Assembly: GCA_020049855.1 (NCBI GenBank)
Contig: JAGVLJ010000001.1
Span: forward strand, 1-64,000
Length of the DNA stretch: 64,000 bases
Direction: 5' to 3'
From: Bacteroidia bacterium
GTDB taxonomy: Bacteria; Bacteroidota; Bacteroidia; UKL13-3
This document shows, piece by piece, positions 44,671 to 50,760 of this stretch (the stretch's first letter is position 1; the number at the start of each line of letters is the position of its first letter). The notes beneath the pieces are model-generated. The model saw only the letters and a list, made by a program, of their open reading frames with translations, did not search any database and was not told the origin of the DNA. The translations under genes and the position numbers were made by a program.

Positions 44671-45399
44671 TTAACCTTTTCTCTTACAAAAATTATATTG
44701 AATGCCGATTCCATAGTTCCACAGATTATGATAAAAAGTTGGAGGGCGGGGGTCAGCTCCACTTTTAATAAATTCAAGATATGTGTCTATTGCTTGATAT
44801 TTTCTGTAATAAATATTTGCCTGCACACTAACCCATGGAGAAATATTGTATGCAAGTTTTCCTCGAAATAAAATACTATTAACCGAAGAGTTAAATTGCG
44901 GGTCATTTCCACTCACCCAAGGAATTGATACCGTATAACCACCTCGAATATAGCTCTTGCCCTTAATTAAAGTGCCTTTGGTAAGTCCAACACTGATACC
45001 CGCTGACCACTTACCTTCACAAAAAGGGATGTCTTTTCCAATTACAAAAACTTTGTCCAAGTAGGCAAACTTTTTTTCTATCGCGAGAGGTGCAAGAAAC
45101 GTAGCACCGGGAGGAAATGCTCCTGTGGTATCCCACGTAAATGATGATTGGCTATAAAAAGTTCCCAAGGCAATGTAAAAATTCCTTTTAAACTTAAGTT
45201 GTAGCATACCCCCATAGGATAATCCCGGGTTATTCCTTTTATATACACGATCTGTTGTTGAAATATCATAGAAACGTGAAGACCCTAATACTTCCACAGC
45301 GAGACGATAACGCTTTTCGGTTGAGTCACTTGGTTCAGCTTTACTTAATAAGGGAGCTAACCAAATAATGAACACGTACAAAGAGGAATATTTTTTCAT
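44671..45399 (-). CDS. Outer-membrane or secreted beta-rich hypothetical protein
   Basis: Signal peptide, beta-barrel-like alternation; ATGA overlap with upstream GH16 gene. Confidence 0.55.
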   Translation of the reverse strand: MKKYSSLYVFIIWLAPLLSKAEPSDSTEKRYRLAVEVLGSSRFYDISTTDRVYKRNNPGLSYGGMLQLKFKRNFYIALGTFYSQSSFTWDTTGAFPPGATFLAPLAIEKKFAYLDKVFVIGKDIPFCEGKWSAGISVGLTKGTLIKGKSYIRGGYTVSIPWVSGNDPQFNSSVNSILFRGKLAYNISPWVSVQANIYYRKYQAIDTYLEFIKSGADPRPPTFYHNLWNYGIGIQYNFCKRKG

Positions 45400-46931
45400 T
45401 TTACTAAGTATATTTTACTTACAGTAGTTCTTGACGGAGTGATCGTTTTTAGCAAATAGTATCCTTCCTGCAAGTTAATTAAATTAAATTGACATTCTTC
45501 ACCAGAAGACAGTCCCTTTTTAATCAAAATATTACCTTGCCAATCCTGAATTTGTATCTCACAAGGTTCAACACTTCTATTTTGCATACTAAAAAATGGA
45601 CTCGTTGGAAAAGGTTTATCCATATCTGGTGGTCCACTCGTATAAAGAAGATTCGAGTCATGTACTGAATCATGTAGACCCTGCATTGACTCTCCACCTC
45701 CTCCATTACCTTCTTCAATTGAGTCAATAGGAAACAAACCCGTTGTATCAGTACTAGTATAAATTTGTTCGCTACAAGGTGAAATTCGGGCAGTAAAGTC
45801 GCTCCCATAAAGAATACTCATATTAGGATTAATAACAACTCTTTCTGAAGCAATAAGGTCTCGGTGAGTAACATCATTGGCGGCAAAATAAGGAGGGTCA
45901 GGATATACTATGGCACCAATAACCGGCATAATTACATTTGTACAAATTCCGTCACCCATTGTAATTACGCGACCAGTGTTAACAGTTGGGTCAGGAAGAT
46001 TTTGAAGCTGATTACAAATAAGGACATTCTGATTGCAGTCCATGGGAGCCCAAATTCGAATATAATCAATATCAAAATAAGCGGGAAATTGGGTGGTTTG
46101 ATCCGGTCCTGGTTCAAATGGTCCCATATCATTTGCAACAGCCATATTAGCTATTAAACGCATAACTCCAACAAACTCGTGTAGCACATATTTTTGCCCT
46201 ATGCCGTTTACAGCCCACATTATAATTCCTGGCAATCGATATCCTGTAACTGTAGTATAAGAAGAGCTAGTAAAATTGAAATTGGGTGAAATAATCCATC
46301 CGCCACAAGGCTGTAATTTCCAAACTTTTGGAAATGATGCCCCTTGTAATGTCCAACATTTATTAGCACTGCTACCAGGCCCATGCATAGCCCAGTGATA
46401 ACATACAGGGCACTCTCCTTTTAGCTCCATAATGTCAATTTCTTCGTCATAAGCACGCAGCCAGAAAGCGGGCCAAAGGCCTTTTCCAAATGGCGCTTTA
46501 AATCGTATTTCAAAGCAACCATACTTGTAAGGCTGACGCGTTACAATTGCACCTGAAGTGTAATTAAAATTTCTAAGATTGAGGTTATACGGTGGTTCAC
46601 GATCTGGGGCAATTTCAGCCAATGAATCCTCCCATGGTATAACAAGAACATTGTTTAACGTTTCGCGCTTTGTGATAATACTCAAGTAATGGGCGTACGC
46701 ATCCTGCCCAAAGGCGAAATTTCCGCTGTCAGTGTAATATTGCAGCTCCCGGTTTTTTGCAAGGGAATGAACATCCATTGGTCTCCAAAGCTTATCTAGA
46801 TCAAGCACTGTCCCATTAAACTCATCTCCATCCAAGTAAACCCATCCGTTAGACACAAACTGGCCATTAACGCTCTGAGTAAAATAGCCAAAGAGCAGTA
46901 CGAAAAAGTAGCTGAATATGCGCTTTTTCAT
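45396..46931 (-). CDS. Glycoside hydrolase family 16 protein with T9SS type A sorting domain
   Basis: GH16 catalytic motif EEIDIMELKG within GKGLWPAFWLRAYDEEIDIMELKG; CTD-like C-terminus ending LLKTITPSRTTVSKIYLVK. Confidence 0.85.
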   Translation of the reverse strand: MKKRIFSYFFVLLFGYFTQSVNGQFVSNGWVYLDGDEFNGTVLDLDKLWRPMDVHSLAKNRELQYYTDSGNFAFGQDAYAHYLSIITKRETLNNVLVIPWEDSLAEIAPDREPPYNLNLRNFNYTSGAIVTRQPYKYGCFEIRFKAPFGKGLWPAFWLRAYDEEIDIMELKGECPVCYHWAMHGPGSSANKCWTLQGASFPKVWKLQPCGGWIISPNFNFTSSSYTTVTGYRLPGIIMWAVNGIGQKYVLHEFVGVMRLIANMAVANDMGPFEPGPDQTTQFPAYFDIDYIRIWAPMDCNQNVLICNQLQNLPDPTVNTGRVITMGDGICTNVIMPVIGAIVYPDPPYFAANDVTHRDLIASERVVINPNMSILYGSDFTARISPCSEQIYTSTDTTGLFPIDSIEEGNGGGGESMQGLHDSVHDSNLLYTSGPPDMDKPFPTSPFFSMQNRSVEPCEIQIQDWQGNILIKKGLSSGEECQFNLINLQEGYYLLKTITPSRTTVSKIYLVK

Positions 46932-46933
46932 GA

Positions 46934-47957
46934 TTAATGAGTTAGGGTACTTAATCGATTTTGCAAGAATAAAATCTGGCTGCTTTGTGCCTGATTTTCT
47001 TTCTTCAGTTCAAGTATATATAATGTCAATTCCTCAATCTTCTCAAGCATTTTAATTTGTAGTTGTGTTATATCAATTTCCCCTTTTGCTTCATACTCCG
47101 AAGCCGATGGTACGTTGGGTAAGTGCCTGTTTTGTTCAATGTATTTTTCCAAATCGGCCAATGTCATTAATTTATATTCGTTAGAAAAAACGTAATCTGG
47201 TATGGTTACCAAATCAACTACTACCTGTCTTGCCCTAACATATCCATTCGCTGTAATTTTAAAATTATTATTTCCCCCAGAACCTTTTAAGGTTAACGCC
47301 CCTCCATAAATTATCAATTCTCCCTGATTTATTTCAATATCATTATTCTCCACTCTAAGACTGCCGGAACTAACCTGTAGTTTAACAGAAGAATTCGAGA
47401 AAATCGTTGTACCAATTCCAATTTGTCCCGAAGAATTCATATAGAAGTCTGGTCTGGTAGCCGCGTACCTACTTATAAAAAAATCATGGTCGGTGTTTTT
47501 GTTCCAACTCATTCCAATATAAAACCACGGATTGCCATTGTGAGCAAATGTTAACAAACTGTTGGCACTGGTTTCTGAGATTCTGTCAATGGTAAGCCCT
47601 CTAGCATCATCTGAGTGTGTAAGGTGTAGCCAGTCAATAGGGGCATCGGTTCCAATACCAACCAGACCTGTAGTTAACACATTAAAATACTCAAAATTGG
47701 TGTAAGAGGGGTCGAGGTACGAAATCTTAAATATGGGGTCGGGGTTTCCAGGAAAAACCGTCCACCCTCCATAATCTAATTTTACATGAAAATTAGCTGC
47801 CGGGGTAGTGGTGCCCACGCCAACAAAAGTGTTAAAAGTGTAAAGTTGGTTTCCGGTTAGGGTCCAGTTGGTTTGTGCAAATAAATGAGAGGAGCACAGC
47901 ATAACAAAGCTAATGAGAAGAATTCCTAATTGGGGGGGGGGTAAATAATGGTTTCAT
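46934..47957 (-). pseudogene. Tail-fibre-like secreted protein, frame-disrupted in this sequence by a 10-nt poly-C tract (candidate phase-variable gene)
   Basis: ATG at 47957 reads ATG AAA CCA TTA TTT A + C10 and stops at TAG; with C9 it reads MKPLFTPPQLGILLISFVMLCSSHLFAQTNW, joining the 322-aa ORF. C-terminus LADLEKYIEQNRHLPNVPSASEYEAKGEIDITQLQIKMLEKIEELTLYILELKKENQ is typical of Bacteroidota tail-fibre/endosialidase-chaperone-like proteins. Confidence 0.8.
47932..47941 (-). repeat. Homopolymeric C10 tract (G10 on + strand), candidate slipped-strand mispairing site
   Basis: Ten consecutive G on the + strand, 16 nt inside the coding start of the gene. Confidence 0.9.
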
Positions 47958-47980
47958 GATTTTAACAAAATTAGTTTACC

Positions 47981-48010
47981 CAAAGTTAGGGGTATTTTTT
48001 GTAAAAGCAA
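47981..48010 (-). promoter_or_regulatory. Bacteroidota-type promoter (TTG-N19-TAACTTTG) for the phase-variable gene
   Basis: Minus strand: TTG at 48008-48010, 19-nt spacer, TAACTTTG at 47981-47988; start codon at 47957. Confidence 0.6.
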
Positions 48011-48013
48011 GCG

Positions 48014-48032
48014 ATATTCCAAATTGGAATAT
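48014..48032. promoter_or_regulatory. Palindromic operator, copy A (ATATTCCAA-A-TTGGAATAT)
   Basis: Perfect 9-bp arms around one central base, between divergent XRE gene and phase-variable gene, close to the latter's -33 element. Confidence 0.75.
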
Positions 48033-48073
48033 TTACCAATGAAATATTAGAAATGTTTTTTACATTTGAGTGT

Positions 48074-48274
48074 ATGAAAAAACTCACTATTGGCGAAAAA
48101 ATAGCCCGGATGCGGATTCAGAAAGGTGTTTCGCAAAAAGAAATGGCTGACTGCATAGGTATGGAGCAATCGGGCTACAGCAAATTAGAACACAAAGGTG
48201 ATGATATTGCTTTTAGTCCTGTAAAAAAGATTTGTAGCGTGTTAGAAATAGACCCCTTTTCAATTCCTCAATAA
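48074..48274 (+). CDS. XRE-family HTH regulator (short form)
   Basis: IARMRIQKGVSQKEMADCIGMEQSGYSKLEHKGDDIAFSPVKKICSVLEIDPFSI; TACATTTG -7-like box at 48061-48068. Confidence 0.9.
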   Translation: MKKLTIGEKIARMRIQKGVSQKEMADCIGMEQSGYSKLEHKGDDIAFSPVKKICSVLEIDPFSIPQ

Positions 48275-48771
48275 ATTTTAGTGGCAATATGCTTATGAAA
48301 GGCAAAATGATAAGGCACCCCTTCTACACTCCACCAGGGCATGTTTTGCAGGCGGTAGTATAATACAATTTGTTTTCCTACTAAAGTGTTTTCCCTCTCA
48401 ACCGTAGTTGTATCATCATACCCAACACCTATATCCCAAGTGCGATTGTATTTATCCCTGACACCAAAATGTCCACCAAGAGTAAACATATTTAATGGAG
48501 TCTGAAAGACGTTTTTTTGATACCCCGTAGTATACAGGTTAGTAAACATATTGGCCACATTTTCCGCTTTCAGATACCAAGTTTCACCAGAGTCAATTTT
48601 AGATATTATCATCTTATAGTAATATCCGCTATCATGTTTTACCATATAAGTGCCCACAAACTGGTCGCGCTGGTCGTAGGGTTTAATAGGCTTCGGTTCT
48701 TCTGGCCCCTCCTTACACCTTAAAGAGCAAAACAGCCCAACGACAAGTAAATAAAAGATTATTTTTTTCAT
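48268..48771 (-). CDS. Hypothetical lipoprotein-like protein
   Basis: N-terminal signal MKKIIFYLLVVGLFCSLRCKEG, intact 167-aa ORF. Confidence 0.55.
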   Translation of the reverse strand: MKKIIFYLLVVGLFCSLRCKEGPEEPKPIKPYDQRDQFVGTYMVKHDSGYYYKMIISKIDSGETWYLKAENVANMFTNLYTTGYQKNVFQTPLNMFTLGGHFGVRDKYNRTWDIGVGYDDTTTVERENTLVGKQIVLYYRLQNMPWWSVEGVPYHFAFHKHIATKIY

Positions 48772-48774
48772 ACC

Positions 48775-50275
48775 TTATTTTGTTAGAATTATTTTTCTGA
48801 CTAAACATTGTCCTGAGTACTCAGCCTTTAGGTAATAAACCCCGGCAGGCATTTGCTGCATAGCTACCTGTTGCTTCTGGTTTGCAGTTGCCGTAAGGGT
48901 TTTTATGGGTTTTCCCATCATATCAAGCAGGGTGAGCTGGTAACTTCCCTTCTTGCCACTCAAATATACAAAAATTTCAGACTTGGCCGGATTGGGAAAA
49001 ACCATCATTTCATACTTTCCGTTTACCGGAATATTTGAAAAGGATATACTATCAGCACCCTGCATGGGTAGCGCTGGTTTCATATCGTCCTCCGGTAAAA
49101 TGGGTTCCTCCAACAACTCTATCGTGAAAAGCTATATTACTGGCTATGTTACAACTGCCATTAGTTTCCAAATATACTCTACACAATAAAACGTTTGCAG
49201 TTGTTAGGTGCTCTAAGGATGATGTATTGGTTGGATCGTAATCAATTCCAACTCCAACAACATTATTACTACCTCCAGATATATCCATAACAGAGGGCTC
49301 GTAGTTGTCCCAAGAAATATTTGGTTCTACAAAAATTTTGCTGTTTGTAGAGACGTTTGTTCCAAATAACGCAGTATTGTACTGTATGAAAAAAGTTGCA
49401 CGTGATAGATATGTTCCGACTTGGTCACATTTAACATACACATCAAATTCAACATACTCCTTACTTGTTCCGGTGTTGCTAACACTCCCGTAATCAAACT
49501 CTATGAGATAAGGTGAGGCATTTGTTTTGCCCTTATATTGAACTTCAACTCCCGAGTGCGACATCCAATATTCTTCCTCGGTAACTCGATTTATTTTGAG
49601 TGATTCAAGCTTACTTCTTTTTTCGCTTTTTTTTTGCTGTGGGATTGACTGTTGCAAGGGGGTAGAATCGAAAGGCCCTGGAGCACATATTTTAGGGTTT
49701 GCCATTCCTTTTATCTTATCAAAATATGTTCGAAAATCATTGTAAGAATTGAACGTTCTCCCTTGAGATAATTTCAGTATACCAACTTCTTTAATAAAGA
49801 CTTCGTTTGTTATCATGCAGATGAAGCCATAATCTGCTCTTGTCCGAAATGGTACTGTAGCCTTTACAGGTTCTGTCTGTGGATTGTAATAATTCCTCAA
49901 ATTCTTTTTTAAAAAAAGAACCGAATATTTGAATGCTTCTCCGAATACAAGATCACTATCATCACCGTTTCTTGTAACCATGAATCGGTCAAATCCACCA
50001 GATCCTGTTTGCCGTGTAAGAACCTCAATTGTTCCACAATCAATAAGACCTTTGAATACTTTGAGTATTTTATATGTCCGTATTTGATATCGGTATTTCC
50101 ACGGATTATCCTTATCAGGATAGTACCTTTCTGAAAGCAGTTCCCCTTCAATAATGAAATCTGAAGACTGTTGCTGTTGATAAAGTAAGTAATTAGGGTC
50201 GGGATAGGATTGGCCAAGCACTTTGGCGCATACCGCTACGCTCAACAATAAGAAAGAAATTAATTTGGTTTTCAT
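48775..50275 (-). pseudogene. Secreted T9SS type A protein split by a frameshift (407-aa N-part 49052-50275; C-terminal sorting domain in ORF 48775-49116)
   Basis: N-part has signal peptide and cohesin-like region but ends without a sorting domain (THAGC*); the overlapping +1-frame ORF carries MMVFPNPAKSEIFVYLSGKKGSYQLTLLDMMGKPIKTL...GVYYLKAEYSGQCLVRKIILTK. Confidence 0.7.
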
Positions 50276-50329
50276 GTTTTTTATAAATTAATACCATCAA
50301 AGATGGGGCGGATTTTTTATAAAAACAAG

Positions 50330-50352
50330 CAATATTCCAAATTGGAATATTG
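50330..50352. promoter_or_regulatory. Palindromic operator, copy B (CAATATTCCAA-A-TTGGAATATTG)
   Basis: Perfect 11-bp arms around one central base, between divergent XRE gene and T9SS gene; core 19 bp identical to copy A. Confidence 0.8.
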
Positions 50353-50379
50353 AACAAAAAGCAGAACTTTGTGATATCT

Positions 50380-50760
50380 ATGATAACAACGATTGCACAA
50401 AAAATTATGGAATTGCGCCTTAAAAAAGGAATCTCCCAAAAAGACATGGCCGATAAAATAGGTATGGAGCAGTCGGGCTACTGCAAACTAGAACACAAAG
50501 GAGATAAAATTGCTTTTTGCACCGTAAAAAAGATATGCAGCGTATTAGAAATAGACCCCGTTTCGCTGATGATAGAACACAACCCTGAGCAACTCCGAAA
50601 CGATACGGATTTTAATGAGATACTACTTCATATTGCCTCTATAACTAATGCAGCCATTACCAACTACAGGGCATTGGTTGAAAACTATCGGCTACAGCAT
50701 TTGGCCGAGCGAAATTTATTAATTGAAAAAATAAGAGAGCTGCACGGGCTGCCGCACTAA
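50380..50760 (+). CDS. XRE-family HTH regulator with C-terminal extension
   Basis: MELRLKKGISQKDMADKIGMEQSGYCKLEHKGDKIAFCTVKKICSVLEIDPVSL, close paralogue of the 48074 ORF; ATG at 50380 preferred over the TTG at 50350. Confidence 0.9.
   Translation: MITTIAQKIMELRLKKGISQKDMADKIGMEQSGYCKLEHKGDKIAFCTVKKICSVLEIDPVSLMIEHNPEQLRNDTDFNEILLHIASITNAAITNYRALVENYRLQHLAERNLLIEKIRELHGLPH

Follow-up and report, generated by a model that had tools for sequence, protein, structure and literature searches.

The phage lambda CI protein activates its target and limits itself, at PRM and PR, and SinR is the biofilm-matrix regulator of Bacillus. The controller (C) proteins of restriction-modification (R-M) systems, such as C.BclI, C.AhdI and C.Esp1396I, have the solved helix-turn-helix (HTH) domains that are closest, by sequence and fold, to the XRE regulators considered below; PMC3115060 describes C proteins as small XRE proteins on palindromic operators, both activating and repressing. 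The DNA analysed here, a stretch of 64,000 nucleotides from a Bacteroidia bacterium (the window), contains two loci, A and B, each of which places a palindrome between an XRE gene and a divergent gene for a surface protein.

Unlike the C proteins, the XRE regulators of these loci have no adjoining restriction or methylase gene, and their target is a divergent surface gene; the ORFs around them encode secreted proteins, an M28-type peptidase and a CysRS-like protein, none resembling R-M as judged by ORF reading. In full-length form they also carry a C-terminal helix, which the C proteins (about 75-80 aa) do not have. The likeness to lambda CI and Cro lies in the HTH fold and in a single site placed suitably for activating one promoter while repressing its divergent partner. 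In contrast to lambda, there is one operator per locus, phage genes are absent nearby, and several target sites are scattered. The SinR likeness comprises an XRE HTH joined to a C-terminal helical part and surface or matrix genes as targets (putative targets here), but no SinI-like antagonist is seen, the sequence relation ends at the HTH, and the phylum is a different one. The surface genes resemble the contingency loci of Neisseria, Campylobacter and Helicobacter in having poly-C/G tracts of 8-10 within surface ORFs, mixed frames and intact downstream sequence; they differ in belonging to uncultured Bacteroidota and in that switching is a prediction from sequence.

Literature searches of a scope that left most subscription journals outside returned nothing relevant on an XRE-palindrome-surface-protein system in Bacteroidetes and nothing on slipped-strand homopolymer loci in this group. 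Each component taken singly, whether XRE protein, palindromic operator or contingency tract, is of a known kind. New are their combination, its lineage restriction and the exchange of alleles at the operator edge.

Genomes compared

The window belongs to a genome of 2.9 Mb in 84 contigs (G000). G002 is a same-genus genome of a sister species, matched by the XRE scan to MAG SSF48, contig JAIBAK010000004.1. A third same-genus genome, G001, is 84% complete, so that absences there are weak evidence. Genome-wide site counts were obtained by pattern search, and the chance level for the palindrome was gauged by a reversed-pattern control and by shuffles.

Palindromes and promoters at the two loci

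The 19-bp palindrome ATATTCCAAATTGGAATAT is exact at 48014-48032 (putative operator copy A) and at 50332-50350 (copy B), the latter within an extended 23-bp form, CAATATTCCAAATTGGAATATTG, at 50330-50352. At up to three mismatches, 0.05 matches are expected per window; there is no further window site beyond these two, and no shuffle of the window gave two matches. The initial annotation had reported identical-core palindromes at both loci, and its coordinates hold save for a 2-base shift of copy B. It had also placed each of them between an XRE ORF (from 48074 and 50380, plus strand) and a divergent surface-protein gene, had quoted minus-strand promoter strings next to both, and had described an element, TTG-N19-GAACTTTG, overlapping copy B upstream of the XRE gene. 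All of these are present as quoted, and the divergent genes encode signal peptides and start at 47957 and 50275 (minus strand). The initial annotation had overlooked the frame loss of gene A and the shortening of both XRE A and gene B, described below.

The -7 box of Flavobacterium promoters has the consensus TAnnTTTG and lies at -12 to -5 (PMC9723704). With this consensus, the surface-gene promoter at locus A is TTG-N19-TAACTTTG (47981-48010, minus strand); its counterpart at locus B is TTG-N20-CATCTTTG (50298-50328, minus strand). The palindrome adjoins the -33 box of the surface gene without overlapping it. The putative operator also adjoins the promoter of the regulator itself at three places, namely at B, at A and at the G002 locus C38. 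At B the XRE promoter spans 50342-50371 (plus strand) and its -33 TTG lies inside the palindrome; at A the operator centre is about -50 from the probable -7 box of the XRE gene, TACATTTG (48061-48068, plus strand).

As assembled, the divergent gene at locus A (46934-47957, minus strand, ATG at 47957) is out of frame, with 331 open codons after a C tract. Its protein would be secreted and is tail-fibre-like, the match to phage tail fibres being weak (E 2e-4), and a search of it for a Por_Secre_tail domain found none. Gene B (49052-50275, minus strand, 407 aa) encodes a secreted protein and is a cut-down form of an intact 1198-aa G002 orthologue, which has a matrixin domain and a Por_Secre_tail (T9SS) score of 26.1 bits, borderline against the cut-off of 27. 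The cut end of gene B is overlapped in another frame by an ORF at 48775-49116 with a Por_Secre_tail score of 45.7 bits, and the overlap has the look of a scar left by recombination or deletion. A block at 44671-49062, which contains gene A and XRE A together with genes for a GH16-like secreted protein and a lipoprotein-like product, is missing from the orthologous place in G002.

Recurrence of the cassette

Two more palindrome sites occur in G000, exact at C20:17224 and with one mismatch at C76:29380. At up to two mismatches, the palindrome and the reversed-pattern control give 5 versus 0 matches in G000 and 4 versus 0 in G002. A two-mismatch site at G000:C83:24877 lies inside a TonB-receptor-like ORF and was taken as chance. 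The total is eight cassettes, four in G000 (A, B, C20 and C76) and four in G002 (C38, C40, C11 and C52, the last at a contig end). All eight have the same layout: the palindrome, 2-3 nt, TTG, N19-22, nnnCTTTG, a leader of ~20 nt and an ATG that belongs to a secreted-protein gene or to a short ORF ahead of one. When the -7 box is placed as in Flavobacterium (PMC9723704), the palindrome centre falls at -47 to -49 in every cassette. The -7 boxes of most cassettes are weak (CAnCTTTG).

An XRE gene accompanies three of the cassettes (A, B and G002-C38, the last with an exact palindrome upstream of an XRE gene whose product is 67% identical to XRE B), and a decayed remnant accompanies two more (C76 and G002-C11). 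Two, C20 and G002-C40, have no XRE nearby, which counts against an operator regulon; each follows a HutH-like gene. Leader sequences are also common to several cassettes. The cassette similarity may partly reflect common descent of duplicated promoters, yet between A and B the operator is identical at 19/19 positions and the leader at 10/20.

A sequence-only model of the cassette gives E values of 2.7e-22 to 5e-14 for the eight cassettes only. Its next matches, at G000:C5 (7e-8) and G000:C40 (2e-6), share the promoter and leader and lack the palindrome, and in the 95 genomes outside G000 and G002 none falls below E 2.7e-4. Outside G001 and G002, the palindrome at up to two mismatches is about as rare as the control in the 94 remaining relatives. 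The pattern search of G001, in the 84% of that genome available, gave zero palindrome matches, and the sole XRE match there is 37% identical. Palindrome matches in other genera, being near control frequency, were set aside; several of those inspected look coding, their protein contexts recurring in G008/G021/G057 and in G025/G047. L091, with an XRE match of 51%, is without the palindrome upstream; in a collection of 84,980 species the G002 record is the only relative above 51%. A phage origin was rejected (the best relative in viral contigs is 42% identical over 59 aa, with zero palindrome-plus-promoter matches), as was a plasmid origin (best match 38% over half of the query).

Within the genus the palindrome is rare and accompanies the XRE family; it is not common and unlinked to XRE genes, as the initial annotation had allowed in naming what would speak against its proposal. 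The recurrence of operator and surface gene that it anticipated is borne out by the fixed promoter position and by secreted-protein genes in 8/8 cassettes; the regulator is missing at two sites. Its description of a duplicated module is right, while a position between an XRE and a secreted-protein gene is true for part of the set only.

XRE regulators

XRE B (50380-50760, plus strand) is full length, with 126 aa comprising an HTH_3 domain and a long C-terminal helix at residues 76-122; the XRE of G002-C38, with 127 aa, is also full length. XRE A (48074-48274, plus strand) has 66 aa and the HTH_3 domain only, keeping about residues 1-62 of about 126 before its C-terminal half is lost after EIDP. 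Against PF01381 (HTH_3; cut-off 23 bits), XRE B scores 32.8, XRE A 31.8 and the G002 protein 42.2 bits, and the three proteins share an almost unchanged helix-turn-helix segment (MEQSGY[SC]KLEHKGD), which agrees with one shared operator. The structure model of XRE B consists of the HTH and the single C-terminal helix, with a mean pLDDT of 93; among solved structures it comes closest to C.BclI, SinR and C.AhdI.

The intact copy of this genome is XRE B; the local XREs at A, C76 and G002-C11 have suffered truncation or decay. XRE A may be inactive without its C-terminal helix, and its truncation counts against an operator regulon. It also qualifies the control module with two XREs that the initial annotation had proposed, of which the association of the operator with the XRE family stands. 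A third decayed copy, at G000:C15:23044-23220, is a fragment of the XRE C-terminal half with an in-frame stop and no HTH.

Allele exchange at the operator edge

Positions 49500-50349 of the window are 94-100% identical to G002, compared with 81-84% for the flanking genes. Just beyond the palindrome at locus B, the identity drops to 28-38%, and the XRE of G002 on that side is nearer to XRE A (84% protein identity over 64 residues) than to XRE B (67%). As the surface side is shared and the XRE sides differ past the palindrome, the same operator and promoter face different XRE alleles in the two species. This exchange suggests that both XRE alleles read the same operator and is the best indirect support for it.

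Proposed mechanism and its alternatives

Operator recurrence, fixed spacing, the tie to the XRE family, copy decay and the exchange of alleles at the operator edge are seen directly. We consider that the palindromes are probably operators of a lineage-restricted XRE/HTH_3 regulator, which would control a small regulon by activating surface genes and, in the case of XRE B, by repressing itself. The regulon would include four or more promoters of surface or secreted proteins in this genome, and four in G002. Dimer formation, operator binding, the sign of regulation and cross-talk are what we infer.

With its site next to the -33 box and centred at -47 to -49, an XRE dimer would most likely activate the surface gene. 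A site that abuts the -33 box is the usual position of an activator touching RNA polymerase, and activation is favoured over repression because the palindrome abuts this box and does not overlap it. At locus B, binding to the same site should block the XRE promoter because the -33 TTG of the latter is inside the palindrome; the regulator would thus cover its own -33 box and repress itself. The geometry of the autoregulation proposed in the initial annotation is clear at B and is not clear at A. The same putative operator is present at unlinked target promoters, those of C20 and C76 in G000 and of C40, C11 and C52 in G002. As the operators are identical and the recognition segments nearly so, one regulator could serve all sites in trans. 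Cross-talk between the modules is supported indirectly by the near-identical recognition segments, by the allele exchange and by the operators that have no local XRE.

The main rival to activation, although a less likely one, is that the same XRE, at the same operator, acts as a repressor of the surface genes and of its own gene; the surface genes would then come on after loss, titration or inactivation of the regulator. The NCBIfam relatives of the HTH are mostly repressors (the RstR, HipB and DicA types) and the fold matches SinR, which speaks for repression and against the activator part of the proposed mechanism; loss or truncation of XRE would then de-repress the surface genes. Activation is nevertheless preferred, in view of the operator position, always at -47 to -49, and of the weak -7 boxes, which would gain from it.

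It is also conceivable, although improbable, that an unrelated regulator binds the palindrome, or that the palindrome is part of a duplicated promoter, and that the XREs are passengers. Palindromes without an XRE at C20 and G002-C40 would agree with this, as would the leaders shared among cassettes. However, G000 and G002 have the operator together with the XRE and G001 (84% complete) has neither, the promoter-only relatives C5 and C40 of G000 also lack both, and the operator was retained while the adjoining XRE alleles were exchanged.

The sharp homology breakpoint located exactly at the palindrome, with a surface side far more alike than the flanking genes, could point to a recombination hot spot, or a site of site-specific recombination, at which surface genes and regulators are shuffled. 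This is very unlikely: ordinary homologous recombination within conserved sequence could also leave a lone breakpoint, the sites have no adjoining recombinase gene, and the constant promoter distance would need a separate explanation. Finally, an RNA hairpin or terminator is rejected, for although the palindromes can fold as RNA (-5.8 and -9.3 kcal/mol), they are A/T-rich and lie upstream of the surface promoter in 8/8 cassettes and of the probable XRE A promoter, outside those transcripts.

Homopolymer tracts in the secreted-protein genes

Gene A starts with ATGAAACCATTATTTA-C10 and meets a stop after 15 codons. The C10 tract (47932-47941, minus strand) lies in the signal-peptide region, and 9 C would restore the frame, giving a signal peptide and the 331 open codons. 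Poly-C tracts of 8-10 in the signal-peptide region are also found at G000:C20:17316, C5:20103, C40:23977 and C78:655 and at G002:C49:17725. The genes of C20 (9 C, a paralogue of gene A), C78 and G002-C49 are in frame. Four genes of G000 are out of frame, those of A, C5, C40 and C76, in which the tract is followed by 331, 1299, 963 and 170 open codons, respectively. Both C5 and C40 have 9 C, and their downstream frames end in T9SS-tail-like sequence; in the C76 cassette, a G10 tract within the ORF (G000:C76:28812-28821, minus strand) shifts the frame of the secreted-protein gene. Most other C/G tracts of at least 8 inside long frames are in frame.

By hand count, there are about 40 C/G tracts of at least 8 in G000, 21 in G002 and 3 in G001. 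A G9 tract at G000:C76:54926 shifts another signal-peptide ORF (MRTFILCLLSLSGFAQ...) with 179 codons open downstream, and a degenerate copy of the poly-C leader without an ATG is present at G000:C20:26851.

The mixed frames and the long open sequence downstream would fit slipped-strand phase variation, the evidence on tract length being differences between paralogues and species. Homopolymer assembly error may also be the source of the frameshifts.

Implications

Few operators in uncultured Bacteroidota have been predicted testably; here the prediction covers the site, its spacing, the regulator and the targets. The position of the breakpoint, at the edge of the operator, hints at how one regulator allele may give way to another with the target promoter left in place. 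Bacteroidota are better known for DNA inversion. If the tracts switch, they would add homopolymer phase variation of secreted proteins to this phylum, on top of a shared transcription switch. We tentatively put forward a two-layer system in Bacteroidota, in which scattered, exchangeable operator-promoter cassettes might respond in trans to one XRE regulator, poly-C/G slippage might turn single cassette genes on or off, and regulator alleles might be swapped at the operator edge with the operator itself retained.
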